From: Actinopolymorpha singaporensis
GTDB lineage: Bacteria; Actinomycetota; Actinomycetes; Propionibacteriales; Actinopolymorphaceae
Direction of reading: 5' to 3'
DNA: 64,000 nucleotides
Assembly: GCF_900104745.1 (NCBI RefSeq)
Contig: NZ_LT629732.1
Location: forward strand, 2,281,981 to 2,345,980
Made by a program: the position numbers and the translations under genes. The notes under the pieces are model-generated. The model made no database searches, was not told where the DNA came from, and saw only the letters and a program-made list of their open reading frames with translations. This document shows, piece by piece, positions 26 to 14,114 of the stretch (positions are counted from its first letter, which is position 1; every line of letters begins with the position of its first letter).

Positions 26-1282
26 TCAGCCAGTGGCTCGCAGCGCCGAGCGGTCGACCTTGCCCGAGGGCAGCAGCGGCAGCGCGTCGACCACGACCAC
101 CTCGCGCGGGGCGTACGCCCGCGGGTGCGTCGCGCTCACGTGGTCGCGGACGTCGGCCAGCGCGGGCGCGCCCGCACCGGGCCGCAGCACGACGTACGCC
201 CGGACCAGGGAACCCCACTCGGCGTCGGGAACCCCCACCGCCGCCGCCTCGGCGACCCCGGGGCACGACGCGACCGCCCGCTCCACCGCGAGCAAGGGCA
301 CGTTGACACCGCCGGAGACCACCACGTCGTCGGCCCGGCCGAGGATCTCCAGCGTCCCGTCGGGGCGCAGCCGGCCGAGGTCGCTGGTCAGGTGCCGGCC
401 GTCGACCAGCGCCGTCGCGGTGAGGTCGGGCCGGCGCCGGTAGCCGGCGAACACCGTGGCGCCGCCGATTCGTACGAGGCCGCTGGCTTCGTCGATGTCC
501 AGGTCCACCCCGGCCAGCGGCCGTCCGTCGTAGACGCACCCGCCGCACGTCTCGGTCATGCCGTACGTCGTCACCACCCGGACCCCGGCCGAGCGGGCCC
601 GGTCCAGCAGTGCCGCCGAGCTCGCCCCGCCGCCGACCAGCACCGCGTCGTACGACCTGAGCGCGTCCACCGCCGCAGGGTCCGCGTCGAGCAGCCGCCC
701 GAGCTGGGTCGGCACCAGCGCGGTGTACCGGCGGGCGGGTGAACCGGATCCGGCGCCGGAACGCCCCAGCCGGTCGGTCGCCGCCGTGAACGCCTCCACC
801 GTGAACCGGCCGGCCATCACCGCCGGCGTCGTCCCCGCGACCAGCGACCGCACCAGTACCTGCAGACCGGCCACCCGGGTCGGCGGCAGCGCCAGCAACC
901 ATCGGCCGGGTCCGCCGAGAGCGGCCAGCGTCGCCCGGGCCGAGTGCAGCAGCGCCGACCCCGGCAGCAGGGCGCCCTTCGGCTCGCCGGTGGAGCCGGA
1001 CGTGGGCAGCACGACGGCGATGTCGTCGCGTTCCAGCGCAAGATCGGTCCGGAGTAGGGTCAGGATCTGTTCGCGCTCGGGTCCCGGCGCGAGTGGCGCC
1101 AGCGCCGGCCCGTCGCCGTCGAGCCGGTCCGCGAGCAACGCCAGCAGTCCGTCGACACCGGCCCGCACGACGCTCGGGTCGGCATGATCGACTAGGCCCT
1201 GCGAGCCGTCGCCCGAGCGGTCGGGAGGGGGCTCGTCCACGAGTTCGACGGCGACCAGTCGGCGGCGGGAGTCGGTTGGCAC
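26..1282 (-). CDS. menE: o-succinylbenzoate--CoA ligase (MenE)
   Basis: AMP-forming ligase that activates o-succinylbenzoate and joins it to CoA in the classical menaquinone pathway; cytosolic. The 418-residue protein has the adenylate-forming loop PTSGSTGEPKG at about residues 93-103, TTYGMTET near 238-245, a GRADD hinge near 315-319 and the SGKVDR lysine motif close to the C-terminus. The start is GTG at 1282. A TAGCCT -10-like box on this strand (1294 down to 1289) ends only 6 bases before it, so the mRNA may be leaderless. The gene is divergent from menC across 99 bases that hold a perfect palindrome. The motif set and men context make this assignment firm; a generic acyl-CoA ligase is the only real alternative. 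Confidence 0.93.
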   Translation of the reverse strand: MPTDSRRRLVAVELVDEPPPDRSGDGSQGLVDHADPSVVRAGVDGLLALLADRLDGDGPALAPLAPGPEREQILTLLRTDLALERDDIAVVLPTSGSTGEPKGALLPGSALLHSARATLAALGGPGRWLLALPPTRVAGLQVLVRSLVAGTTPAVMAGRFTVEAFTAATDRLGRSGAGSGSPARRYTALVPTQLGRLLDADPAAVDALRSYDAVLVGGGASSAALLDRARSAGVRVVTTYGMTETCGGCVYDGRPLAGVDLDIDEASGLVRIGGATVFAGYRRRPDLTATALVDGRHLTSDLGRLRPDGTLEILGRADDVVVSGGVNVPLLAVERAVASCPGVAEAAAVGVPDAEWGSLVRAYVVLRPGAGAPALADVRDHVSATHPRAYAPREVVVVDALPLLPSGKVDRSALRATG

Positions 1283-1287
1283 GTGAC

Positions 1288-1323
1288 TAGGCTACGAGCC
1301 CGGTCTCGTGACACTGTGTCACG
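1288..1323. promoter_or_regulatory. menE/menC divergent control region with 17-bp palindrome
   Basis: CGTGACACTGTGTCACG at 1307-1323 is a perfect inverted repeat with 8-base arms around a single T. The heptamer TAGGCTA at 1288-1294 reads as a -10 box on both strands: TAGGCT rightward towards menC and TAGCCT leftward towards menE. The palindrome would lie just downstream of the rightward start point and over the -35 zone of the leftward promoter, so one regulator could control both men transcripts. No good -35 hexamer is visible on either side. The regulator is unknown. Confidence 0.55.
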
Positions 1324-1381
1324 GACATGCGGGGGAACGCCCCGACGGGGAAGTGGCGGGGAGGAGACGGAGGATGCGGTC

Positions 1382-2344
1382 ATGATCATCCGGGCGGACG
1401 GCGATCTTCACGTCTTCGCGGTGGCCATGCGCAACCGCTTCCGCGGCATAACTGTCCGTGAGGGGATCCTGGTCCGCGGCCCGGCAGGCTGGGCGGAGTT
1501 CAGCCCGTTCCTCGACTACGACGACGCCACCTGCGTTCCCTGGCTGCGGGCGGCCCGCGAGGCCGCGTACGACGTGTGGCCCACCCCCGTCCGCGACGCG
1601 GTCCCGGTCAACTGCACCGTCCCCGCCGTCGGTCCCGAACAGGCGCACGAAGTGGTGTGCCGCAGCGCCGGCTGCCGTACCGCCAAGGTGAAGGTCGCCG
1701 AGCCCGGCCGGCCAGAGTCCGACGACCTGGCGCGGGTGGAGGCGGTCCGCGACGCCCTCGGCCCCGACGGACGGATCCGGGTGGACGCCAACGGCGGCTG
1801 GGACGTCGACACCGCCACCAGGATGATCACCTGGCTGGACAAGGCCGCCGGCGGCCTCGAGTACGCCGAACAACCCTGCGCCAGCGTCGAGGAGCTCGCC
1901 CAGGTACGCCGCCGGGTCGATGTACCCATCGCCGCCGACGAGTCGATCCGGCAGGCGGCCGACCCCTACCGCGTGGTCCGGCACGAGGCCGCCGACATCG
2001 CCGTGCTGAAGGTCCAGCCGCTCGGCGGGGTGCTGTCCGCGCTGCGGATCGCCGAGCAGATCGGCCTCCCGGTGGTGGTGTCGAGCGCGCTGGAGACCTC
2101 GATCGGGATCGCCGGCGGGGTCGCGCTCGCGGCGGCGTTGCCGGAGCTGCCGTACGCCTGTGGCCTGGCCACCGTCTCGATGCTGACCGCCGACGTGGTG
2201 GCCCATCCGCTCGTACCCGTGGACGGCGCGTTGCCCGTCGTCCGGCCCGAACCCGATCCCGCCCGGCTGGCCGCGGTGGCCGCCGACGAGGCGACCCGGC
2301 AGCGCTGGCTGGAACGCCTGGACAGGGTGGAGGGCCTGGCGTGA
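1382..2344 (+). CDS. menC: o-succinylbenzoate synthase (MenC)
   Basis: Enolase-superfamily enzyme that dehydrates SHCHC to o-succinylbenzoate in menaquinone synthesis. The 320-residue protein has the catalytic KVK pair (K102, K104), metal ligands D135 (VDAN), E163 (EQP) and D187 (ADES), and the second catalytic lysine K210 in LKVQ. The start is ATG at 1382 because GGAGG at 1369-1373 stands 8 bases upstream; an in-frame start at 1283 would add 33 Arg-rich residues with no counterpart in the family. The stop codon overlaps the menD start by 4 bases (GTGA). It is divergent from menE and co-transcribed with menD. Confidence 0.94.
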   Translation: MIIRADGDLHVFAVAMRNRFRGITVREGILVRGPAGWAEFSPFLDYDDATCVPWLRAAREAAYDVWPTPVRDAVPVNCTVPAVGPEQAHEVVCRSAGCRTAKVKVAEPGRPESDDLARVEAVRDALGPDGRIRVDANGGWDVDTATRMITWLDKAAGGLEYAEQPCASVEELAQVRRRVDVPIAADESIRQAADPYRVVRHEAADIAVLKVQPLGGVLSALRIAEQIGLPVVVSSALETSIGIAGGVALAAALPELPYACGLATVSMLTADVVAHPLVPVDGALPVVRPEPDPARLAAVAADEATRQRWLERLDRVEGLA

Positions 2345-4116
2345 ACCCCTCCACCGCACTGGCCAGGGTGATCGTCGACGAGCTGTGGCGGTGCGGCGTA
2401 CGCGAGGCGGTGCTCGCGCCCGGGTCGCGCAACGCCGCCCTCGCGTTCGCCCTGCACGCCTCCGACGCCCAGGGCCGGATCCGGCTGCACGTACGCGTCG
2501 ACGAACGCACCGCGGGGTTCCTCGCCCTCGGCCTGGCCAAAGCCGGTCGCCGCCCGGTCCCGGTGGTGTGCACGTCCGGCACCGCCGCGGCCAACCTGCA
2601 CCCGGCCGTGCTCGAGGCCAGCCACGCGGGAGTGGCCCTGCTGGTGCTCACCGCCGACCGGCCGCCGGAGCTTCGGGGCGTGGGCGCCAGCCAGACGACG
2701 GACCAGCTCAAGCTGTACGGCGACGCGGTGCGGCTCTTCCACGAGGTCGGCCTACCGGAGCGCCGGCCGGGCCAGAACGCCTACTGGCGCGAGCTCGTCG
2801 GCCGGGCAACTGCGCTGGCGCGCGGGTTCCGCGACCGCAACCCCGGCCCGGTGCACCTCAACTTCGCGTTCCGTGACCCGCTGGTGCCCGACCCGGCCGA
2901 CCCGCTGGACCTCGAGGACCCCCGGCTGCGCGACGACTGGCCGGAGTCCCTCGCCGGCCGGTCCGGGCACGGCCGGTGGACCAGGATCGAGCGGCTGTCC
3001 ACCGAGCACATCGCCTGGCTGGAGGAGGGGCCGCGCACGGTGGTGGTCGCCGGCGACGGGGCCGACGCGCAGGCCCGCTGGCTGGCCGAGACAGCCGGCT
3101 GGCCGCTGCTCGCCGAGCCTTCCAGCGGCGCGCGATCGGGCCCGAACGCGCTCGGCCCCTACCGCCTCCTGCTGGACACCCGGCCCGACCTGGTCGCAGG
3201 GATCGAACGCGTGGTGGTGCACGGCTGGCCCACCCTGTCCCGCCCGGTGACCCGGCTGCTGGCCCGCCCGGACGTCGAGGTGGTCGTGGTGTCCCGCCGG
3301 CCGTCCTGGCCCGACGCCGGCCACCAGGCGTACCGCGTCACGACGACCGCGGCGCTGGAGGGAACGGTCGAGGGTGCCGGCCGGCGTGAGCCGGACGAAT
3401 GGCTGGCCGCCTGGCTGGCCGCCGACCGGGCTGCCCGCGCCGCCGTCGACGACGTGCTCGCCCGCGAGCCCGGGTTCACCGGCCTGCACGTCGCCCGGGA
3501 GGTGGCCGGCCTGCTGCCCGAGGGCGGCCTGCTGGTGGCCGGGTCCTCCAACCCCATCCGCGACCTCGACCTCACCGGCGCGCCGTGGGACAACCGGCTG
3601 GTCGACGAGGCCGGCCGGATCGACCCGCGCGACCACCGCCGCGTGCTGAGCAACCGCGGCCTGGCCGGCATCGACGGCACCCTGTCGACCGCGATCGGGG
3701 CGGCGCTGGTGCACCGGTCGGGTCCGGCGTACGCGCTGGTCGGCGACCTGACGTTCCTGCACGACGCCAACGCCCTCGTCCGCGGTCCGTACGAAGCCCG
3801 GCCCGACCTCACGATCGTGGTGGTCAACGACGACGGCGGCGGCATCTTCAGCACGCTCGAACAGGGCGGGCCCGACCACGCTGACGCGTTCGAACGGATC
3901 TTCGGTACGCCGCATGGCGTCGACCTCGGCTCCCTCACCGCGGCGACCCACACGACGTTCATCCGGGCGACGACCCGGGCGGAGCTGCGCGGCGCACTGT
4001 CCCGGTCCCGCGGGCTGCGGGTCGTCGAGGTGCCGGTCGACCGGTCGCGCACCCGGGACCTGCACGCCCGGCTGCGCGAGGCCGTGGCGGCCGCGGCCTA
4101 CGACGAGGTGCGCTGA
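2341..4116 (+). CDS. menD: 2-succinyl-5-enolpyruvyl-6-hydroxy-3-cyclohexene-1-carboxylate synthase (MenD)
   Basis: ThDP-dependent enzyme that adds decarboxylated 2-oxoglutarate to isochorismate, the committed step of menaquinone synthesis. The 591-residue length is typical. Visible features are APGSRNAAL (about 26-34), the ThDP-activating glutamate E55 in VDERTAGF, the GTAAANL loop, and the C-terminal ThDP/Mg site: GDLTFLHD near 467 and NDDGGGIF near 496. The GTG start overlaps the menC stop by 4 bases, so translation is probably coupled. The open frame extends far upstream of this point, but only by shadowing menC. Its last codons and stop lie in a 20-bp tandem duplication (4103-4142). Confidence 0.95.
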   Translation: MNPSTALARVIVDELWRCGVREAVLAPGSRNAALAFALHASDAQGRIRLHVRVDERTAGFLALGLAKAGRRPVPVVCTSGTAAANLHPAVLEASHAGVALLVLTADRPPELRGVGASQTTDQLKLYGDAVRLFHEVGLPERRPGQNAYWRELVGRATALARGFRDRNPGPVHLNFAFRDPLVPDPADPLDLEDPRLRDDWPESLAGRSGHGRWTRIERLSTEHIAWLEEGPRTVVVAGDGADAQARWLAETAGWPLLAEPSSGARSGPNALGPYRLLLDTRPDLVAGIERVVVHGWPTLSRPVTRLLARPDVEVVVVSRRPSWPDAGHQAYRVTTTAALEGTVEGAGRREPDEWLAAWLAADRAARAAVDDVLAREPGFTGLHVAREVAGLLPEGGLLVAGSSNPIRDLDLTGAPWDNRLVDEAGRIDPRDHRRVLSNRGLAGIDGTLSTAIGAALVHRSGPAYALVGDLTFLHDANALVRGPYEARPDLTIVVVNDDGGGIFSTLEQGGPDHADAFERIFGTPHGVDLGSLTAATHTTFIRATTRAELRGALSRSRGLRVVEVPVDRSRTRDLHARLREAVAAAAYDEVR

Positions 4117-4196: not shown

Positions 4197-5078
4197 GTGT
4201 ACGGCGAGCTCACCGACGACCCGGCCAACTTCCTGACCTCGGCCGCGGACTACTTCGCGGCGGACCCGGTGGTCAACAACGTGCTGGTCACCAACGTCAC
4301 CGGCCGGGCGGCCGGCGTGATCACCGACCCCGCGCCGGCGACGTACCTCACGGTGCGAACCGACGGCGGCGAGGTGGTGGCCGCCGCGATGCGGACGCCG
4401 CCGCAGCGGGTGTGGCTGTCCGCGGAGTCCGGCCCGGCCGCCGAGCTGGCCGCGGAACTCCTTGCCGCGGCCTGCCCGGACGCGGCGGGCGTGGTCGGCA
4501 CCCACCCGTACGTCGCCGACTTCACCCGGGCGTGGGAACGCCTCACCGGCGCAGCCGCCGTGCCCGAGATGGCCGAGCGCCTGCACGCGCTGGACGCGGT
4601 GACGCCACCGATGCCGGTGCCGGGCGCGCCCAGGTTGGCGACGGCCAGCGACCGGGACAGGCTGCTGGCGTGGTGCCTCGCGTTCGAGGCGGACGCCGCC
4701 GAAGCCGCCGGCCGGCCGGTGAACGCGCTGACCGAGGTGGAGCGGCGCCGCGTGACCGAGGCGGTCGACCTGCGGCTGGCCGAGCGGCGCGCCTGGGTGT
4801 GGGACCACGACGGCCCGGTGTCGCACCTCGGCGTCACCGCGCCGGTGCACGGCGTCGTCCGGATCGGCCCCGTCTACACCCCGCGTGACCGGCGCGGCCG
4901 GGGATACGCGAGCGCGCTGGTCGCCGCCGTCAGCCGGCACGAACTGGACGCCGGCACGAAGACGTGTTCGCTGTTCACCGACCTGGCCAATCCGACCTCG
5001 AACAGGATCTACGCCGCGGTGGGCTACCGGCCGGTGCGCGACGTCACGGCGTACCGCTTCGAACCGGCTTCCGGCTGA
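4197..5078 (+). CDS. GNAT family N-acetyltransferase
   Basis: Predicted acetyl-CoA-dependent N-acyltransferase of 293 residues; substrate unknown. The C-terminal half carries the GNAT fold: VYTPRDRRGRGYASALVAAV around 223-242 is the acetyl-CoA-binding R/Q-x-x-G-x-G/A loop (here RRGRGYA), followed by SNRIYAAVGYRPV, the usual end of the domain. The N-terminal about 130 residues, rich in AAEL and hydrophobic segments, resemble actinobacterial two-part GNATs whose first half is degenerate. The start is GTG at 4197, 80 bases after menD. The gene is probably separate in function from the men genes. Confidence 0.8.
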   Translation: MYGELTDDPANFLTSAADYFAADPVVNNVLVTNVTGRAAGVITDPAPATYLTVRTDGGEVVAAAMRTPPQRVWLSAESGPAAELAAELLAAACPDAAGVVGTHPYVADFTRAWERLTGAAAVPEMAERLHALDAVTPPMPVPGAPRLATASDRDRLLAWCLAFEADAAEAAGRPVNALTEVERRRVTEAVDLRLAERRAWVWDHDGPVSHLGVTAPVHGVVRIGPVYTPRDRRGRGYASALVAAVSRHELDAGTKTCSLFTDLANPTSNRIYAAVGYRPVRDVTAYRFEPASG

Positions 5079-5082
5079 GGGT

Positions 5083-5120
5083 GCCCGGTGCGCCGGTGCG
5101 CCGGTGCAGGTGTACCGGGC
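5083..5120. repeat. 8-bp tandem repeat inside an inverted repeat
   Basis: CGGTGCGC occurs three times in tandem (5086-5093, 5094-5101, then CGGTGCAG at 5102-5109). The block is enclosed by GCCCGGT (5083-5089) and ACCGGGC (5114-5120), which pair as a 7-bp stem. It lies between two co-directional genes, right after the GNAT stop. A weak terminator or a simple slippage tract are both possible; no T-run follows. Confidence 0.5.
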
Positions 5121-5148
5121 GCAGGGTGTGCTGGCAGGCTGAGCGGTC

Positions 5149-6300
5149 ATGACGACGGCGTACGGCGGCCGGACCCGGTTCCCGGTCGTACTCCTCCTCG
5201 CTCCGCTCCTCGCGGGGCTGGTGCTGACCGGGCTCGGCCTGGCCCACCCGGCGCCCGCACGCGCGGCGGTGACGAAGGCCGCCAAGGCTGCCGAGGGTGA
5301 CCGCATCCCGGCGTACGACATCTCCGCCCGGGTCGGCACCGACGGGTCGGTCGCCGTGCGTGAGCGGTTCACCTACGACCTGGCGGCCCGGCCAACCCCG
5401 CTGAACTGGGCCGTGCCGATCCGGTTCACCTCGGCCGGCGAGAGCGCGGACGGCCGCGACCAGGCGACCGGGCAGGTGGTGTCGGTGCACGACCTGGCGG
5501 TACGCATGGACGGCCGCCCGGTGCGCACGTACCACGACCATCAGGCCTGGTGGTACACCATCTGGATCGGGCCGGACGGCACGACGCCGGCCGGCCGGCA
5601 CAGCTACGAGGTCAGCTACGTCCTGCGCGGGCTGGTCACCTCGCCGAGCGACCAGTTGCGGGGCACCAACGGCCCCCGCAGTGCCGGAATGTGGTGGAAC
5701 GCGGTCAGCGCACACGACGAGCCGATCGACCGGGTGCGGCTGACGGTGACCGCGCCGGAGGCGCCGGTCCGGGTGTCGTGCACCATCACCGACGACACGG
5801 CGCCGTGCAGGGCCGGAGTCAGCGGTTCGACCGTCACCTTCACCGCCGCCGGCCTGCCGGGCAGGAGCGCGGTCACGACGTACGCCGAACTCCCCGGCGT
5901 GCACGCCGACGACTACACGGCGATCCTGCCCGGGGTGAAGGCCACCCTGCGCAGCAACCTCGCCGGGCCCGGCGCGATGGCCGGCCTGCCCGCGGGTGCC
6001 GTGTGGGGAGTCACCGCGCTGCTGGCGGCGGCGGTGGTCGTGGGGCTGGTGCTGGTGGCCCGCCGGCCGCGCCTGCCCAGGATGGCGGTGCGGGACACCG
6101 GGGCCCTGGTCACGGTCGCCGGGCTTGTCCTGGCGTACTTCCTGGCGAGATACGACCTGGTGTGGTGGGCGCTCCCGGTGGTCTGTTTCGGCGCCGCCCT
6201 GGTCGTGATCAGCCCGATGCTGCCGTCCTCCGGAGCGCACCGGCCGGCCGGTGCCGCCCCGGCGCCATGCGGACCCAAACCGGTTGCCCCGACCCGGTAG
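5149..6300 (+). CDS. DUF2207-type secreted/membrane protein
   Basis: Unknown function. The 383-residue protein opens with an export signal (hydrophobic stretch about 12-38 ending ARAA). A soluble domain of about 240 residues follows, with the typical DUF2207 pattern AYDISARVGTDGSVAVRERFTY and LNWAVPIRF, and then DYTAILPG before the membrane. Hydrophobic segments at about 282-302, 320-336 and 342-362 anchor the C-terminus. Full DUF2207 proteins are usually longer with a Gly-rich tail; this one ends soon after its last membrane segment with a Pro/Ala-rich tail. The start is ATG at 5149. The outer domain presumably faces the cell wall. Confidence 0.7.
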   Translation: MTTAYGGRTRFPVVLLLAPLLAGLVLTGLGLAHPAPARAAVTKAAKAAEGDRIPAYDISARVGTDGSVAVRERFTYDLAARPTPLNWAVPIRFTSAGESADGRDQATGQVVSVHDLAVRMDGRPVRTYHDHQAWWYTIWIGPDGTTPAGRHSYEVSYVLRGLVTSPSDQLRGTNGPRSAGMWWNAVSAHDEPIDRVRLTVTAPEAPVRVSCTITDDTAPCRAGVSGSTVTFTAAGLPGRSAVTTYAELPGVHADDYTAILPGVKATLRSNLAGPGAMAGLPAGAVWGVTALLAAAVVVGLVLVARRPRLPRMAVRDTGALVTVAGLVLAYFLARYDLVWWALPVVCFGAALVVISPMLPSSGAHRPAGAAPAPCGPKPVAPTR

Positions 6301-6371
6301 GGTTGGCCCGTCCCCTCGATCCGGGAGTGATCCGACCGATGCGCAGCTGATCCGCGGGCTTCGTCCGTGCT

Positions 6372-6391
6372 GTGGAACGCCTTCGTTCCAC
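6372..6391 (+). promoter_or_regulatory. Perfect hairpin in the ABC-F leader
   Basis: GTGGAACG (6372-6379), loop CCTT, CGTTCCAC (6384-6391): an uninterrupted 8-bp stem about 100 bases upstream of the ABC-F start. Leaders of antibiotic-responsive ABC-F genes often carry attenuators, so a regulatory role is plausible. The 189-base leader has no in-frame stop after GTG 6367, so a short regulatory leader peptide in that frame is not evident. Confidence 0.45.
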
Positions 6392-6489
6392 CCGGGAGTC
6401 CGCCGACGTTCGGCCATCGCGCGCGCCTTCTTCCAGCCGCCGCGCACCATGCCGGCCAGGTCCTCTGGCCACGTCGCCCCGGAGCAGCC

Positions 6490-8145
6490 ATGTCCGTCTC
6501 GGCTCTGTCCACCCTCGTCGTTCGCGACGTCCAGCTTCACCTCGGCCCCCAGCTTGTTCTCGGGGGCATCTCCGCCACCGTCGCGCCCGGTGACCGCTAC
6601 GCCGTCGTCGGGCCGAACGGCGTGGGCAAGACCACGCTGTTGCGGGTGATGCTCGGCGCGCTCACCCCCGATCAGGGCTCGGTCGAACGCCAGCCCGCCG
6701 CGGCCACCGTCGGGCTCCTCCCACAGGAGCGGGACGCCCGGCCGGGTGAGACGCTCGCCTGCTACCTGGGCCGGCGTACCGGCGTCACCGCGGCCGAGGC
6801 CGAGCTCACCGGCGCGACCACCGCGCTGGCCGAGGGCGAGAAGGGCGCGGACGATCGGTACGCGCTCGCCCTGGACCGCTACCTCGCCCTCGGCGCCGCG
6901 GACCTCGACACCCGCGCGCCCGCCGTCCTCGCCGACCTGGGCCTGCCGCCGGACCGGCTCGAGGACCCGGTGCTGTCCCTGTCGGGCGGGCAGCTCGCCC
7001 GGCTGGCGCTGGCGTCGGTGCTGCTGGCGAAGTTCGACGTACTCCTGCTCGACGAACCCACCAACGACCTCGACCTCGCGGGCCTGGCCAGGCTGGAGGA
7101 GTTCCTCACCAGCCGGTCCGGTGCGCTGGTGGTCGTGTCGCACGACCGGGCGTTCCTGCAGCGGGTGGCGACCGACGTCCTCGAGATCGACGAGTTCAGC
7201 CGGCAGGGCCGCACGTACGGCGGCGGGTTCGACTCCTACCTGGCCGAACGCGAGCGGGCGCACGCCGCGGCGCAGGAGGCGTACGACACCTACGCCTCGC
7301 AGCGGGACGCCCTGCTGGAACAGGCGAAACGCAAGCAGGAGTGGGCCCGCGCGGGTGCCCAGCGCTCTGCCCGCAAGCCCCCCGACAACGACAAGTTCGT
7401 CCGGCACTTCCACATCCAGAAGGCCCAGGGCACCGGTGCCGGCGCGGCCCGTGCACAGCGGGCGGCCGACCGCCTGACCGAGGTCGAGGAACCACGGACG
7501 CCGTGGGAGCTGCGGCTGAAGCTCGACCAGGGTTCTCGCAGCGGCGCCCGGGTGGCCGGGCTGGCGGGCGTCGTGGTGGAGCGGGGATCGTTCCGGCTGG
7601 GGCCGGTCGACCTCGACCTGCGCTACGCCGACCGGATGGTGGTGGTCGGGCCGAACGGCGCCGGGAAGTCCAGCCTGATCTCGGTGCTGCTCGGCCAGTT
7701 GGAGCCGGCGGCGGGGGAGCGGTGGATCGGGCACGGTGTCGTACTCGGGCAGATCGACCAGGTGCGGCGGGGCGTGGCGGCCGACGTCGTACTGCTGGAC
7801 GCCTTCCGGCAGGCGTCCGGGCAGGACGAGACCGAGGCGCGGACCCTGCTGGCGAAGTTCGGGCTCGGCGCCGATGACGTCGTACGGCAGACCGGCTCGC
7901 TCTCGCCCGGCGAGCGGACTCGGGCCGACCTGGCGCTGCTGGTCGCGCGGCAGGCAAACCTGCTCGTCCTGGACGAGCCGACCAACCACCTCGATCTGCC
8001 CGCGGTCGAACAACTGGAGCAGGCGCTGGCGGACTACGACGGCACCCTCGTGCTGGCCAGCCATGACCGAAAATTGGTCGAAGCCGTCCACCCGACGCAC
8101 ATAGTTCACGTGCTGGACGGGCACATCAGCGTGGAACGCCCGTAA
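6490..8145 (+). CDS. ABC-F family ATPase (ribosome-acting type)
   Basis: Duplicated ABC ATPase without membrane segments, 551 residues; ABC-F proteins bind the ribosomal E site and rescue or protect translation, some giving resistance to macrolides, lincosamides and similar drugs. Domain 1: Walker A GPNGVGKTT near 41, signature LSGGQ near 164, Walker B LLLDEPTND near 184. Domain 2: GPNGAGKSS near 386, a variant signature LSPGE near 470, LVLDEPTNH near 490. The interdomain linker (about 255-320) is charged and helical, as in the P-site tRNA interaction motif. The start is ATG 6490 with GGAG just upstream; an upstream in-frame GTG (6367) would add an unrelated 41-residue tail. Housekeeping and resistance types cannot be told apart here. 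Confidence 0.88.
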   Translation: MSVSALSTLVVRDVQLHLGPQLVLGGISATVAPGDRYAVVGPNGVGKTTLLRVMLGALTPDQGSVERQPAAATVGLLPQERDARPGETLACYLGRRTGVTAAEAELTGATTALAEGEKGADDRYALALDRYLALGAADLDTRAPAVLADLGLPPDRLEDPVLSLSGGQLARLALASVLLAKFDVLLLDEPTNDLDLAGLARLEEFLTSRSGALVVVSHDRAFLQRVATDVLEIDEFSRQGRTYGGGFDSYLAERERAHAAAQEAYDTYASQRDALLEQAKRKQEWARAGAQRSARKPPDNDKFVRHFHIQKAQGTGAGAARAQRAADRLTEVEEPRTPWELRLKLDQGSRSGARVAGLAGVVVERGSFRLGPVDLDLRYADRMVVVGPNGAGKSSLISVLLGQLEPAAGERWIGHGVVLGQIDQVRRGVAADVVLLDAFRQASGQDETEARTLLAKFGLGADDVVRQTGSLSPGERTRADLALLVARQANLLVLDEPTNHLDLPAVEQLEQALADYDGTLVLASHDRKLVEAVHPTHIVHVLDGHISVERP

Positions 8146-8219
8146 GACTAGAGTTCGTTACTCACCCGTAGCACCTGGACCGGACTCGATCCACAACCGA
8201 CCCGCACCGTGGAGGGCCC

Positions 8220-8906
8220 ATGCACGCCCCAGACCTCGGAAGCTCCGTGCAGGAGGCAGTCCACGACGTCGCCCAGAACGTCAAGCCGAGGTTGCGGGGC
8301 TGGCTGCACGCCGGGACGTTCCCGCTGTCGGTGGCGGCGGGCATCGTCATCGTGATCCTGGCGCCGAGCACCGAGGCGAGGATCGCGACGGGGATCTTCG
8401 CACTCACGGCGAGCCTGCTCTTCGGGGTGAGCGCGCTCTACCACCGCGGGACCTGGTCGCCGCGCGCGGCGGGGGTGCTGCGCCGGCTGGACCACGCCAA
8501 CATCTTCCTGATCATCGCGGGCACCTACACGCCGTTCACGCTGCTGTTGCTGGACAGGCAGAACGCCAAGGTGCTGCTCGCCATCGTGTGGGGCGGCGCG
8601 CTGCTCGGGGTGGCGTTCCGGGTGCTGTGGCTGGGCGCGCCGCGCTGGCTGTACGTCCCGGTGTACGTCGCGGTCGGCTGGGCGGCGGCGTTCTGGCTGC
8701 CGGACTTCTTCGACCACGGCCGGGGCGCGGTCTTCGCGATGATCCTCACCGGCGGGCTGCTCTACTCCGCGGGCGCGATCGTGTACGCCACCAAGAAGCC
8801 GAACCCGTCGCCGCGCTGGTTCGGGTTCCACGAGGTCTTCCACGCGTTCACGGTCCTGGCGTTCATCGCCCACTACGTCGGGGTGTCGCTGACCGTCTAC
8901 TCCTGA
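8220..8906 (+). CDS. trhA: TrhA / hemolysin III family (PAQR) membrane protein
   Basis: Seven-segment integral membrane protein of the hemolysin-III/PAQR family, 228 residues, proposed to take part in membrane lipid homeostasis. It shows the family residues SALYHRG near 72-78, DHANIFLIIAGTYTPF near 90-105 and the C-terminal HEVFHAFTVLAFIAHY, whose histidines with the ALYH histidine form the metal site. Hydrophobic segments fill the protein from about residue 35 to its end. The N-terminal 28 residues are soluble. The start is ATG 8220. It ends at a strong terminator and converges on menF. Confidence 0.88.
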   Translation: MHAPDLGSSVQEAVHDVAQNVKPRLRGWLHAGTFPLSVAAGIVIVILAPSTEARIATGIFALTASLLFGVSALYHRGTWSPRAAGVLRRLDHANIFLIIAGTYTPFTLLLLDRQNAKVLLAIVWGGALLGVAFRVLWLGAPRWLYVPVYVAVGWAAAFWLPDFFDHGRGAVFAMILTGGLLYSAGAIVYATKKPNPSPRWFGFHEVFHAFTVLAFIAHYVGVSLTVYS

Positions 8907-8923
8907 GCACTCGCGAAGAACGC

Positions 8924-8975
8924 CGAGGTGGGAAGACTTGCGGGGGTCATAGGCCCCGTATGCCTTCCCACCTCG
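8924..8975. terminator. Bidirectional terminator between trhA and menF
   Basis: CGAGGTGGGAAG (8924-8935) and CTTCCCACCTCG (8964-8975) are perfect 12-base complements. Between them sits an inner stem, CGGGG (8941-8945) with CCCCG (8954-8958). The element lies between convergent genes and should stop transcription from both sides. As usual in high-GC actinomycetes there is no T-run. Confidence 0.85.
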
Positions 8976-9061
8976 AGGCTCGGGCCTTGACTTCGGTGAC
9001 GGGCCACGGATCCGGCCGGAGCCGGTGGGCCGCCTCGACCACGGGGGGTCGAGGGTACGGG

Positions 9062-10384
9062 CTAGGGCGTCTCGGCGGGGTCCGGAGTGAGTGCGTCGCG
9101 TACGGGCACGAGCTTCGCCTGCGCCTCGGCGAGTTCGGCCTCCGGTACGGAGTCGGCCACGATGCCGCAGCCGGCGTACAGCCGCAGCCGCCGTGGATCG
9201 TCGGTGTCCACCTGCGCGCACCGCAACGCGATGCCCCACTCGCCGTTCCCCGCGGCGTCCACCCAGCCGACGGGCCCGGCGTACCGGCCGCGGTCCATGT
9301 GTTCCAGCTCGGCGATCAGTTTGAGCGCGACCGGGGTGGGTGTGCCGCACACCGCCGCGGACGGGTGCAGCGCCGCCGCGAGTTGCAGCGAACTCGAGCC
9401 GTCGGCCAGCACCCCGGCGAGGTCGGTCGCGAGGTGCATGACGTTCGGCAGGTGGAGGACGAACGGCGACTCCGGGACGTTCATGCTCGTGCAGTGCGGC
9501 GCCAGCGCGTCCGCCACCGACCGCACGGCGTACTCGTGCTCCTCCAGGTCCTTGCTCGACCGCGCCAGCGAGGCGGCGAGGGCCAGGTCGCGCGCGTCGT
9601 CGTTGCTTCGGCGGATCGTCCCGGCCAGCACCCGCGAGGTGACCAGGCCGTTCTCCAGCCGCACCAGCATCTCCGGCGTCGCCCCGATCAGGCCGCGCAC
9701 GGCGTAGGTCCAGCAGGCGGGGTAGTCCCGCGCGATCCGGGCCAGCGGCCACCGGAAGTCGACCGGCTTCTCCGCGACGGCGAGCAGGTCGCGGGCCAGC
9801 ACCACCTTGTCCAGGTCACCGGCGTCGATCCGGCGTACGGCGTCGGCGACCGCGCTCGCCCACTGCGCACCGGTCAGCGCCCCGTCGGCGAACACGACTC
9901 CCTGCGGGCGCTCCGGCGACGGCGTCCCGAACAGCGACGGCAGTGACGGCACCGTCGGGAGGGCGGGCTCGACCGCGATAGTGGTGAGCCAGCGGCGGTC
10001 GCCGCGGCGGCCGAGGACGACGCGGGGTACGACGAGGGTGGAGTGCCCGGGATCGTCGGCGAACGCGAAGGATCCGAACCCCACCAGGCCGGTGCCGGGT
10101 TCGCCGATCTCGTCCCGTACGGCGGCGGACTCGGCCAGCTTGCCCCACCACTGAACCGCGGTCGCGAAGCGATCGGGGCCGGCGACGTCCAGCCGGGCCG
10201 CTTCGCCGTGTCCGACCAGCCCCTCGCCGCGCCGCACCCAGGCGGTCGCGTTCTCGGCGGGCAGCGTCTGCAGGAGATCGAGTCCGGCGTGCACGTCGGG
10301 GTCGAGCTCGGTGGTGCGCACGACCAGCCGGGGCACGTCAGGGGCCACGAAGTCGTCCGCGGGGATGGCCGATGATTCCGTCAC
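9062..10384 (-). CDS. menF: Isochorismate synthase (MenF)
   Basis: Converts chorismate to isochorismate, the entry to menaquinone synthesis. The 440-residue protein carries the chorismate-binding fold in its C-terminal two thirds: VVLAR, GATPEMLV, GTIRRS, the helix SSKDLEEHEYAV, LHPSAAVCGTP and ELEHMDRGRYAGPVGW, with the glutamates that bind Mg. The GTG start at 10384 is followed by TESSAIP; a TACTCT -10-like box (10398 down to 10393) would place the start point within 2-3 bases of it. The gene is divergent from menG. Salicylate or 2,3-DHB isochorismate synthases are alternatives, but no siderophore genes are present. Confidence 0.9.
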   Translation of the reverse strand: MTESSAIPADDFVAPDVPRLVVRTTELDPDVHAGLDLLQTLPAENATAWVRRGEGLVGHGEAARLDVAGPDRFATAVQWWGKLAESAAVRDEIGEPGTGLVGFGSFAFADDPGHSTLVVPRVVLGRRGDRRWLTTIAVEPALPTVPSLPSLFGTPSPERPQGVVFADGALTGAQWASAVADAVRRIDAGDLDKVVLARDLLAVAEKPVDFRWPLARIARDYPACWTYAVRGLIGATPEMLVRLENGLVTSRVLAGTIRRSNDDARDLALAASLARSSKDLEEHEYAVRSVADALAPHCTSMNVPESPFVLHLPNVMHLATDLAGVLADGSSSLQLAAALHPSAAVCGTPTPVALKLIAELEHMDRGRYAGPVGWVDAAGNGEWGIALRCAQVDTDDPRRLRLYAGCGIVADSVPEAELAEAQAKLVPVRDALTPDPAETP

Positions 10385-10447
10385 GGCTCACCAGAGTAGG
10401 TCTCGGCCGAGGTTAAGGCGCGGGCGCGGCCGTGAGAGGTTGGACAC

Positions 10448-11140
10448 GTGGCACGTGCATCCCTGGCAAAACAGCCCGCCGAAGTGGCGGCGATGTTCGA
10501 CGAGATCGCCGAGCGTTACGACCTGACCAACGACCTGTTGTCGCTGGGTCAGGACCGTTGGTGGCGGCGGGCGGTGGTGAAGGCGGTCGACCCGCGGTTG
10601 GGCGAACGCGTGCTCGACCTCGCGGCCGGCACCGGCACCTCCAGTGAGCCGATGGAACGCGACGGGGCGTTCGTCGTTCCGTGCGACTTCTCCGTCGGGA
10701 TGCTGGGCCGGGGCAAGCGGCTGCGGCCGGAGCTGCCGTTCGTCGGCGGGGACGCGCTGGCGCTGCCGTTCGCCGACGAGAGTTTCGACGCGGTCACCAT
10801 GTCGTTCGGCCTGCGCAACCTGGCCGACCCACGCGCCGGACTGGCCGAACTGCTGCGCGTCACCCGGCCCGGCGGGCGGGTGGTGGTGTGCGAGTTCAGC
10901 CACCCGGTGTGGGCGCCGTTCCGCCGGGTGTACGTCGAGTACCTCATGCGCGCTGTGCCCGGAATCGCCCGACGGGTGGCGGCCGAACCCGAGTCGTACG
11001 TCTACCTCGCCGAGTCGATCCGAGCCTGGCCCGACCAGGCCGGCCTGGCCGCGGAGTTCGCCGCGGCCGCGTGGAGCCGGGTGGAGTGGCGCAACCTGAG
11101 CGGCGGCATCGTCGCGCTGCACCGGGCGTACCGCCCCTGA
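10448..11140 (+). CDS. menG: Demethylmenaquinone methyltransferase (MenG/UbiE)
   Basis: SAM-dependent C-methyltransferase that makes menaquinone from demethylmenaquinone, the last ring step. The 230-residue protein has the family N-terminus [23 protein letters not shown] motif [13 protein letters not shown] near 55-66, [24 protein letters not shown] near 101-124 and the [17 protein letters not shown] block. The GTG start at 10448 has GAGAGG 9-10 bases upstream. The intergenic space to menF holds the self-complementary CTCGGCCGAG (10402-10411), which may be an operator. Confidence 0.92.
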
Positions 11141-11263
11141 GGTCCGCGCTGACGTAAAGCCCCTGACGTCTCCCGTACGCCGACCACGGCCGGGCGCCCC
11201 CAACCCGCCGTATCCGGCTGAATCCGCCCTGGCAGCACGCCACCCGGTCGCCGATCATCTGCG

Positions 11264-11298
11264 CCGGCCGATCCCGGCCGATCCCGGCCGATCCCGGC
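11264..11298. repeat. 10-bp tandem repeat (ATCCCGGCCG)
   Basis: ATCCCGGCCG stands at 11271-11280 and 11281-11290, with partial copies on both sides, about 3.5 units in all. It lies after the menG stop, outside coding sequence. The unit is itself partly self-complementary (CCGG, GGCC). Confidence 0.7.
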
Positions 11299-11581
11299 GA
11301 CGAGTCCCGCGCAGGACGCAGCCCAGAAGCCTCCGGCCCGGCCGGCGCTGCGGCTCCCGCTGCTGATCGGGAGGTGACCGGCGAGGTGGCCGGCGAGGCG
11401 ATCGGCAGCGGATCCGCGAGGCGACCGGGACGGGATCCGCGGGTGAGCGGCGGCCGAACCCCAGGTGAGCGGTGGTCAGGTTGTCCGGCAACGGCCAGCG
11501 GTTTTTGACAACCGAAACGTCGCTTAAATCCCCAGGTCAGCCCGGCCATGGGGGCTTGCGCGCGGATGGCGGAGAACCTCG

Positions 11582-11622
11582 TAGACTGTGACCATCACGG
11601 ACTCGTGAAGGTGTTCACAAGT
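11582..11622 (+). promoter_or_regulatory. Rex-like operator and -10 box before the reductase-nuo operon
   Basis: The core CGTGAAGGTGTTCACA (11604-11619) matches the known Streptomyces Rex consensus TGTGAACNNNTTCACA at all but the first T and the C before the spacer. The wider palindrome 11601-11622 pairs ACT with AGT at its ends. It begins about 16 bases after a TAGACT -10-like box (11582-11587), so a bound repressor would sit just downstream of the start point. Rex is an NAD(H)-sensing repressor of respiratory genes, including nuo in S. coelicolor; control here is an inference. Confidence 0.7.
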
Positions 11623-11685
11623 CCGCGCAGCAGACACTCAGCAACACCGCATCAGGTCCCGAATCTCTCTTCCCAGGCAAGGGCC

Positions 11686-12996
11686 ATGAGCCGCAACAGC
11701 GCTGAACACGACGCGGACGTCATCGTCGTCGGAGCCGGTCCGGCGGGCGCTACGACCGCCTACCATCTCGCCCGCACCGGGCTCAACGTCCTGGTGCTGG
11801 AGAAGACGGCGTTCCCGCGCGAGAAGGTCTGCGGCGACGGGCTCACCCCCCGCGCGGTCAAGTCGCTCGTGGCGATGGGTATCGACACCTCGGCCGAGGC
11901 CGGCTGGCTGCAGAACAAGGGCCTGCGCATCTACGGCGGCGGAATGCGGCTCGAGCTGCCCTGGCCCGACCTCGCGGAGTTCCCGCCCTACGGCCTGGTC
12001 CGCAAGCGCACCGACTTCGACGAGACTCTCGCCCGCCAGGCCCAGAAGGCCGGCGCCCGCCTGCACGAACGCACCACGGTCACCGGTCCCGTCACCGACG
12101 AGCGCACCGGGCGGGTCGTCGGCGTGACCGCCAAGCCGGTCCGCGAGGCCGGCGGCTCGGGCGAACCGGGCTCCGGTGCCGAGGTCACCTACCGCTCGCC
12201 GGTGGTGATCGCGGCCGACGGCAACTCCTCCCGGCTGTCGGTCTCGGCCGGCCGGATGCGCCGCGAGAACCGCCCGATGGGTGTGGCCGTACGCACGTAC
12301 TTCGAAAGCCCCCGGCACGACGACGACTGGCTGGAGTCCTGGCTGGAGCTGTGGGACGGCAAGCCCGGCCAGAGCAACCTGCTTCCCGGCTACGGCTGGG
12401 TGTTCGGCATGGGCGACGGCACCAGCAACGTCGGCCTCGGCCTGCTCAACACCAGCACCGGCTTCCAGAACGCCGACTACCGCGGCCTGCTGAAGGCGTG
12501 GCTGTCGGGGATGCCGCCGGAGTGGGGCTTCGTGGACGACCGGCAGGTCGGCCCGGTCCGCGGAGCGGCACTCCCCATGGGCTTCAACCGCAAGCCCCAC
12601 TACGCTTCCGGACTGATGCTCGTCGGTGACGCCGGCGGCATGGTCAACCCCTTCAACGGCGAAGGGATCGCCTACGCCATGGAGTCGGGGGAGATGGCGG
12701 CCGACGTCGTCGCCCAGGCCCTGGCCCGCCCCGACGGTCCGGCGCGCGAACGGGTGCTGGAGAGTTATCCGCGGGCGCTTTCGGCGAGGTACGGCGGCTA
12801 CTACACAATGGGCCGGATCTTCGTGAAGGCGATCGGCAACCCACAGGTGATGAAGATCGCCACCCGCCACGGCCTGCCACACCCGGTGCTGATGCGCTTC
12901 ACGATCAAGCTGCTGGCCAACCTGACCGACCCGCGCGGAGGTGACGCCATGGACCGGCTCATCAACGCGCTCGCCAAGGTCACCCCGGCGGCGTAG
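11686..12996 (+). CDS. Geranylgeranyl reductase family flavoprotein (MenJ-like)
   Basis: FAD-dependent oxidoreductase of 436 residues, in the family that saturates isoprenoid double bonds; MenJ of mycobacteria reduces one unit of the menaquinone side chain. The N-terminal dinucleotide-binding motif VIVVGAGPAGATTAYHLAR begins near residue 10, the PREKVCGDGLTPRAV signature near 43, and the second FAD motif LVGDAGGMVNPFNGEGIAYAM near 312. The start is ATG 11686; an upstream in-frame ATG at 11548 would run through the Rex-like site and is unlikely. The location directly before nuoA matches other actinomycetes and supports a role in making the quinone used by complex I. The exact substrate is not proven. 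Confidence 0.82.
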   Translation: MSRNSAEHDADVIVVGAGPAGATTAYHLARTGLNVLVLEKTAFPREKVCGDGLTPRAVKSLVAMGIDTSAEAGWLQNKGLRIYGGGMRLELPWPDLAEFPPYGLVRKRTDFDETLARQAQKAGARLHERTTVTGPVTDERTGRVVGVTAKPVREAGGSGEPGSGAEVTYRSPVVIAADGNSSRLSVSAGRMRRENRPMGVAVRTYFESPRHDDDWLESWLELWDGKPGQSNLLPGYGWVFGMGDGTSNVGLGLLNTSTGFQNADYRGLLKAWLSGMPPEWGFVDDRQVGPVRGAALPMGFNRKPHYASGLMLVGDAGGMVNPFNGEGIAYAMESGEMAADVVAQALARPDGPARERVLESYPRALSARYGGYYTMGRIFVKAIGNPQVMKIATRHGLPHPVLMRFTIKLLANLTDPRGGDAMDRLINALAKVTPAA

Positions 12997-13046
12997 TGAC
13001 ATGCGAGTTCCCCACGACGTTCCACACCACGTTCCACCCAGACATC

Positions 13047-13102
13047 CGGCCGGCCAACCGGCGCGGCCGGCCGAAACCCACCGGGCGGGGGAGTCCTAGG
13101 AT
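13047..13102 (+). promoter_or_regulatory. Stem-loop and possible nuoA promoter
   Basis: CGGCCGGCC (13047-13055) and GGCCGGCCG (13065-13073) form a perfect 9-bp stem with a 9-base loop. A TAGGAT -10-like box follows at 13097-13102. Just upstream, ACGTTCCAC is directly repeated at 13017-13025 and 13029-13037. Together these could terminate or attenuate read-through from the reductase and restart transcription for nuoA. No clear -35 box is seen. Confidence 0.45.
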
Positions 13103-13153
13103 GACCAGCCCGGGGGCCGGTACGACAACAGCCAGAAAGGGGAGCAGGTCGGC

Positions 13154-13513
13154 GTGAACCCCTATGTGCCGATTCTCATTCTGCTTCTGCTCGGCGGCGG
13201 CTTCGCGGTTGTCTCCGCCGTGGCCGGCTCCGTCATGGGACCGAAGCGCTACAACCGGGCGAAGGTCGAGTCGTACGAGTGTGGGATCGAACCCACCCCG
13301 CAGCCGGCCGGCGGTGGCCGCTTCCCGGTGAAGTACTACATCACCGCGATGCTGTTCATCGTCTTCGACATCGAGATCATCTTCCTCTACCCCTGGGCGG
13401 TCGCCTTCGACTCGATGGCGCTGTTCGGCCTGGTCGAGATGGTCTTGTTCATCCTGACCGTGTTCGTCGCCTACGCGTACGTCTGGCGCCGCGGGGGCCT
13501 GGAATGGGACTGA
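13154..13513 (+). CDS. nuoA: NADH-quinone oxidoreductase subunit A (NuoA)
   Basis: Small membrane subunit of complex I near the quinone channel. The 119 residues form three membrane segments (about 5-27, 62-82, 88-110). The conserved loop [11 protein letters not shown] with the quinone-gate cysteine lies at about 37-47, and the second segment [16 protein letters not shown] carries the family acidic pair. The start is GTG 13154 after AAAGGGGAGCAGG. It is the first gene of a 14-gene operon and precedes nuoB by 46 bases. Confidence 0.95.
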
Positions 13514-13559
13514 GCATCACCCCGCACCCGGTCCGCCGTACGGAAGAGAGCTGAGAGCC

Positions 13560-14114
13560 ATGGGCATCGAAGAGAAGCTGCCCGCAGGGGTCGCCCTGAC
13601 CACGGTCGAGGGCATCGTGGGCTACTTCCGCAAGGCGTCGGTGTGGCCCGCGACGTTCGGCCTGGCCTGCTGCGCCATCGAGATGATGACCACCGGCGGC
13701 CCCCGCTACGACACCGCCCGCTGGGGCATGGAGGTCTTCCGCGCCTCGCCGCGGCAGGCCGACCTGATGATCGTCGCCGGCCGGGTGAGCCAGAAGATGG
13801 CCCCGGTGCTGCGCCAGATCTACGACCAGATGCCCGAGCCCAAGTGGGTGCTGGCGATGGGTGTGTGCGCCTCCAGCGGCGGCATGTTCAACAACTATGC
13901 GATCGTGCAGGGCGTCGACCACGTCGTCCCCGTCGACATCTACCTGCCCGGCTGCCCGCCGCGGCCGGAGATGCTGCTGGACGCGATCATCAAGCTGCAC
14001 GAGAAGATCCAGGCCGGGAAGCTCGGCGTGCACAAGCGGCAGCAGCTCGAGGAGCACGAGAGCCTCGCGCTGGAGGCCGCGCCGACCTCGCAGATGAAGG
14101 GGCTGCTTCGGTGA
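13560..14114 (+). CDS. nuoB: NADH-quinone oxidoreductase subunit B (NuoB)
   Basis: Carries Fe-S cluster N2, which hands electrons to quinone. All four ligands are visible in the 184-residue protein: the tandem pair in [10 protein letters not shown], the cysteine in GVCASSGG and the one in PGCPPRPE. The C-terminal tail after about 150 is helical and charged. The start is ATG 13560; the stop overlaps the nuoC start by 4 bases (GTGA). Confidence 0.96.

Follow-up and report, generated by a model that had tools for sequence, protein, structure and literature searches.

In the commonest form of bidirectional promoter, the divergent start sites lie 18 bp apart (excerpt of PMC10268837), and a single protein may act in both directions, as in Escherichia coli, where AcrR represses both RNAs of the acrA/acrR bidirectional promoter (excerpt of PMC12825309). 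In Mycobacterium tuberculosis, 73% of primary start sites follow the motif TANNNT, no −35 element was found to be conserved and leaderless transcripts are common (excerpt of PMC3898074). Regulation of actinobacterial men genes is already known, with entC-menD-menE falling in phosphate-starved M. tuberculosis (excerpt of PMC10100808). For BldD, the published DNA box is TNAC(N)5GTNA (excerpt of PMC4151990) and the published protein motif is RxD-X8-RxxD (excerpt of PMC7374567). Among the literature matches listed, with subscription papers excluded, the available excerpts name no transcription factor for the classical actinobacterial men genes with a site like the one described below, and the site's own sequence words gave no literature match. 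Among the matches listed, BldD and menaquinone occur together in PMC8062868, as far as its excerpt goes in the reference list only, and in PMC10090380; PMC4117774 and PMC7324645 were discarded as menE papers, their excerpts having matched "menE" through an author's name only.

The divergent menE/menC gap

We analysed a stretch of 64,000 nucleotides from Actinopolymorpha singaporensis, referred to as the window, in which menE and menC are divergent and separated by 99 bases (Table 1). The original prediction described in this gap a perfect 17-bp palindrome and a TAGGCTA element that can be read both ways, and both are present. Our main reading, to which we assign a probability of roughly 0.62, is that the palindrome serves as operator for both promoters, irrespective of the protein that binds it; the gap would then hold a conserved, probably functional operator on a promoter of an otherwise ordinary kind. 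The menE assignment comes with a profile score of 336.1 bits, slightly short of the curated cut-off of 345. For comparison, we assembled a set of 8 Actinopolymorphaceae genomes (G000 to G007, G000 being that of A. singaporensis itself), 6 of which belong to the genus Actinopolymorpha; the family comparison consists of one 26-base alignment and one longer alignment.

Table 1. Features of the menE/menC region (window coordinates unless a locus is named)
Feature	Position	Strand	Basis or remark
menE, o-succinylbenzoate-CoA ligase, 418 aa, GTG start, predicted leaderless	26..1282	-	best NCBIfam match NF005877
UbiA-family gene, probably menA; next after menE, just past the window edge	L052:14097-14969	same as menE	PF01040
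menC, o-succinylbenzoate synthase, 320 aa, ATG at 1382	1382..2344	+	NF002782, 461.8 bits (cut-off 288)
menD, 4-base overlap with menC	2341..4116	+	TIGR00173, 386.7 bits (cut-off 244.2)
menC Shine-Dalgarno, GGAGG	1369..1373	+	read from sequence; GGAGG aligned in 7/8 family genomes
Two-way −10, TAGGCTA	1288..1294	strand-neutral	plus TAGGCT 1288-1293, minus TAGCCT 1294-1289; both TANNNT
Predicted menE transcription start, first GTG base	1282	-	from −10 spacing
Predicted menC transcription start, 82-nt leader	1300	+	via −10 placement rule
17-base palindrome CGTGACACTGTGTCACG, presumed operator; two 8-base arms about T1315	1307..1323	strand-neutral	sequence, conservation
Family-wide core GTGACANNNTGTCAC, within palindrome	1308-1322
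BldD-box form TGAC-ACTGT-GTCA (TGACACTGTGTCA), within palindrome	1309-1321

By the sequence criterion TANNNTA, a −10 form readable on both strands is present in 8/8 family genomes, from which we infer its use in both directions. A gene was predicted to be leaderless when an in-frame ATG or GTG lay 6 to 7 nt beyond the end of TANNNT, as is the case for menE: the order TANNNT, 6 nt, GTG recurs in all 8 family genomes, and the frame opened by this GTG spans 384 to 436 residues. The predicted menE and menC starts lie 18 bases apart, a figure that follows from the rule by which the starts were placed, and divergent starts 7 to 25 bp apart were taken to define a bidirectional promoter. Relative to these predicted starts, the centre of the palindrome falls between −32 and −35 for menE (−33 in A. 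singaporensis) and between +15 and +18 for menC (about +16 in A. singaporensis) across the 8 genomes. A consensus scan of positions 1200-1450 found no sigma-70-type promoter, which counts against the promoter model but is to be expected of a promoter that lacks a −35 element.

Conservation and distribution of the site

The length of the palindrome is by itself no evidence, because the window contains 4 palindromes whose 8-base arms flank a single base, where 4.25 (sd 1.8) are expected from 20 simulated sequences of the same dinucleotide make-up; what counts is its position and conservation. The menE and menC genes are divergent in all 8 family genomes, and 2 blocks of the gap, the two-way −10 and the site GTGACA-NNN-TGTCAC, have been kept, whereas the DNA between and beyond them has drifted. 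The −10 block reads CTAGGCTACGAG, with TAGGGTA in G003 and G for A near the block end in G006; the form CTAGGCTAC is found in 7/8 genomes, and the TAGGGTA of G003 still fits TANNNT on both strands. The site GTGACA-NNN-TGTCAC is exact in 6 genomes and degenerate in 2, its invariant positions being GTGAC..T.TGT..C (8/8); the palindrome takes the form GTGACACTGTGTCAC in 4 genomes and GTGACAATCTGTCAC in 2, with GTGACGGTGTGTCGC and GTGACAGTCTGTAGC in G006 and G007, respectively. In the 4 most diverged rows of the alignment, identity to A. singaporensis amounts to 47/48 bases in the −10 block and 56/68 in the palindrome, compared with 15/32 in the spacer and 49/148 in the leader. The original prediction had made its case depend on conservation of the palindrome in closely related men loci, and within the family both the site and the two-way −10 have been retained. 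Its suggestion that one regulator sets both genes is reasonable on the same grounds.

Searches of whole genomes with the 15-base core GTGACANNNTGTCAC (centre free, no mismatches) returned a single copy in each of G000, G001, G002, G003 and G004, always in the men gap, and 3 copies in G005, one of which is that of men; the exact form was absent from the genomes of G006 and G007, and the reversed control gave 0 hits in all 8 family genomes. With up to 2 mismatches, GTGACACNGTGTCAC matched the genome of A. singaporensis 7 times, the men site included, as did its control, giving no signal of a genome-wide regulon. GTCACN5GTGAC occurred 8 times in this genome against 0 for its control. For the shorter TGACN5GTCA, counts relative to the reversed control were 38/16 in G000, 43/31 in G003 and 43/19 in G004, an uneven surplus. 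Certain spacers of TGACN5GTCA are shared between the lists for these 3 genomes, and are not counted as support because the flanks are unaligned. A codon-composition test of where the A. singaporensis sites lie, crude and unreliable, scored the men site itself as coding, because the menC frame remains open upstream. One single-mismatch copy of the operator, GTGACGCGGTGTCAC (L140, G000:C1:279987-279999), lies just 5′ of a TTGACA and an Ada/AlkA-like gene (by eye).

For a wider comparison, we sampled 110 menC loci, made up of 30 (from 30/57 genomes) and the 80 top-ranked out of 543 related stretches. A BldD box within 1500 bases upstream of menC was found in 10 of the 110: 7 rows, all Actinopolymorpha from 6 genomes, carry it close to the gene (−61 to −84), and the 3 other loci carry it far away (−899 to −1289). 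Among the best 80 of 543 related loci, all from named genomes, menE is divergent from menC by the test applied in 23, one of which, Actinopolymorpha rutila (L060), is the same place as L002 of G003 and was left out; none of the remaining 22 divergent menE/menC loci, all from other groups, has the site or a BldD box, and any such control is therefore young or lineage-bound. Loci L009-L030, which represent other genera of the order, have menE and menC on one strand (22/22). In eight of the divergent loci, all Nonomuraea (L087, L088, L094, L106, L118, L128, L135 and L137), the gap carries TAAGGTTA, a sequence readable in either direction, and the TAACCT within it lies 7 nt ahead of the menE ATG; menE is predicted to be leaderless in this unrelated family too. 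The two-way promoter form thus recurs without the operator, since the Nonomuraea gaps have TAAGGTTA but lack the box.

The window contains a second divergent men pair (9062-11140), in which the chorismate-binding menF (minus strand) and menG/ubiE (plus strand) are 63 bases apart and are followed by an FAD oxidoreductase gene and 2 nuo-type genes; the gap of this pair is partly conserved in the 6 Actinopolymorpha genomes. It was the one other men promoter examined, and the operator site or a BldD-type box was found there in 0/6 of these genomes. The original prediction had suggested a search upstream of other men genes; at menF/menG the palindrome was not found, and on the strength of this one promoter nothing points to a regulon spanning the men genes.

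Candidate proteins and alternative readings

Among named proteins, BldD bound to c-di-GMP is the leading and most specific candidate for the men site, although a tentative one. The box is matched by the site in 6/8 family genomes, with G006 and G007 one base off. The original prediction knew of no regulator of menaquinone synthesis genes with this site; that statement now carries the caveat that the putative site fits the published BldD box and that BldD is encoded in the genome. The BldD C-terminal domain (PF21179) is present in 7 of the 8 genomes searched, namely in 6/6 Actinopolymorpha genomes and in G009, but not in G008. All 71 residues of chain 2ewt, which we take to be Streptomyces coelicolor BldD, are covered when the DNA-binding domain of the A. 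singaporensis protein is aligned with it, and the translation of this protein carries RGD-X8-RKED, in agreement with RxD-X8-RxxD. Upstream of bldD, all 6 Actinopolymorpha genomes have a perfect box, GTCACGCTCCGTGAC (L161, G000:C1:4478203-4478217 in A. singaporensis), which probably reflects autoregulation by BldD; we count it in favour of BldD, because autoregulation would predict such a box. Searched for anywhere in the genome, GTCACGCTCCGTGAC has 2 perfect copies in G006 and 3 near copies in G007.

Several observations temper this assignment. No more than 6 bases are fixed in the BldD box, such that approximately 0.005 occurrences would be expected in every 100 bases, and a second box lies in the window, inside menC. 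The men site GTGACACTGTGTCAC and the bldD box GTCACGCTCCGTGAC are unlike in both flanks and core, the latter having C in place of the men G and the core GCTCC, which weakens the case for BldD without excluding it, because these positions are unspecified in the published consensus. The men core itself, ACTGT, becomes AATCT, GGTGT or AGTCT in relatives. Two further TGACN5GTCA sites in the A. singaporensis genome lie 5′ of nucleotide-sugar dehydratase-like and membrane glycosyltransferase-like genes (by eye), which are not developmental. Because the box is loose, the bldD box differs and the men core varies, we hold BldD level with the reading in which GTGACANNNTGTCAC is the main or only target of a regulator that is dedicated to it or has otherwise not been described (of TetR, MarR or XRE type, for instance), whose gene lies apart from the men genes and which perhaps senses a quinone or a pathway intermediate. 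The latter reading, equally tentative, would account for an exact 15-mer that is single-copy, at men, in 5/6 Actinopolymorpha genomes, and for the G in position 2 of the box, which is invariant (8/8) although the BldD box does not demand it. Dedicated regulators often carry a second copy of their site at their own gene, and it counts against this reading that no second exact copy exists in 5/6 Actinopolymorpha genomes. The neighbourhood argues in the same direction: on the menE side, the regulator genes found are those of a TetR (adjoining a small multidrug-resistance gene) approximately 2.3 kb past the menA candidate and of an AsnC (adjoining a PALP-family gene) approximately 4.6 kb past it, and on the menD side a family search of the 9 gene-like frames at 4197-14114 of the window found no regulator family. 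A handful of frames on the menE side gave no family match, so a novel regulator may be encoded there.

Readings that dispense with a protein, or call on a different one, appear considerably less probable. Instead of binding a protein, the palindrome might form a hairpin in the RNA, at the 5′ end of the leader of menC, and affect stability or translation; indeed, the folding energy of a 31-nt stretch is −13 kcal/mol (z −2.2, with 6/200 shuffles equally good), while the changes in G006 and G007 retain U-G or G-U wobbles. We consider this the weaker explanation, and an improbable one, because the 88-nt leader folds like shuffled sequence (z −0.25) and the stem lacks two-sided change: 0/7 pairs are changed on both sides, 3/56 cells lack pairing and the covariation score is the same as for shuffles. 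A hairpin would also leave unexplained the near-fixed distance to the start of menE on the opposite strand. That a chance palindrome has simply been kept through the close kinship of the genomes is very unlikely: palindromes of such length are common in the window, but the flanks of the 4 diverged genomes are 33 to 47% identical and the palindrome 82%. Similarly improbable, if not slightly more so, is a CRP/FNR-type regulator acting on a variant of the CRP consensus TGTGA-N6-TCACA; the site does offer the half-sites GTGA and TCAC, in inverted order, but they are spaced by N7 rather than N6, all 6 genomes with both half-sites retain N7, and the CRP consensus is not matched. Two other candidates were rejected. 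The IdeR/DtxR iron box is TTAGGTTAGGCTAACCTAA, with which the central TAGGCTA agrees but only 1/12 of the outer bases do (by eye). The WhiA motif is GACAC, which is lost in G002 and G005.

Proposed regulation and comparison with described systems

On the operator reading, the 99-base gap would be a compact bidirectional promoter with a single operator, in which RNA polymerase would recognise TAGGCTA in both orientations. The minus-strand transcript would begin at the menE start codon, lacking a leader, and carry menE and then probably menA; the plus-strand transcript, encoding menC and menD, would begin approximately 18 bases away and have an 82-nt leader with a Shine-Dalgarno sequence. The palindrome would be bound by a symmetric dimeric DNA-binding protein, presumably a repressor. 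Positioned over the −35 region of menE, the bound dimer would block polymerase, and over the first transcribed bases of menC it would obstruct initiation or early elongation, such that both menaquinone transcripts would be lowered together on binding. The start sites, the repression and the identity of the protein are all deduced from the sequence. If the protein is BldD, quinone supply would be tied to c-di-GMP and development; the full proposition, that BldD with c-di-GMP directly represses both menaquinone halves in Actinopolymorpha and so couples quinone supply to the developmental messenger, strikes us as rather unlikely. Whatever the protein, a conserved operator that is single-copy in 5/6 genomes of the genus would be a ready bait for its regulator.

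Of the described systems, the Streptomyces BldD-c-di-GMP box resembles the men gap in the fit to TNAC(N)5GTNA, the presence of bldD and the location of the site over a predicted promoter; it differs in that the target at men is the menaquinone pathway rather than a developmental gene, and in that 2/8 family sites are one base off. The symmetric −10 of bidirectional promoters (Warman et al. 2021, via the excerpt of PMC10268837) is readable on both strands, as is that of the men gap, and the predicted men starts are 18 bases apart, whereas the men gap has the actinobacterial TANNNT and one side predicted to be leaderless, and its starts are predicted. In acrA/acrR, as far as the excerpt of PMC12825309 describes it, one repressor, AcrR, lowers both divergent transcripts, as would be the case at men; there, however, the repressor is encoded by one gene of the pair, whereas no regulator gene adjoins the men gap.
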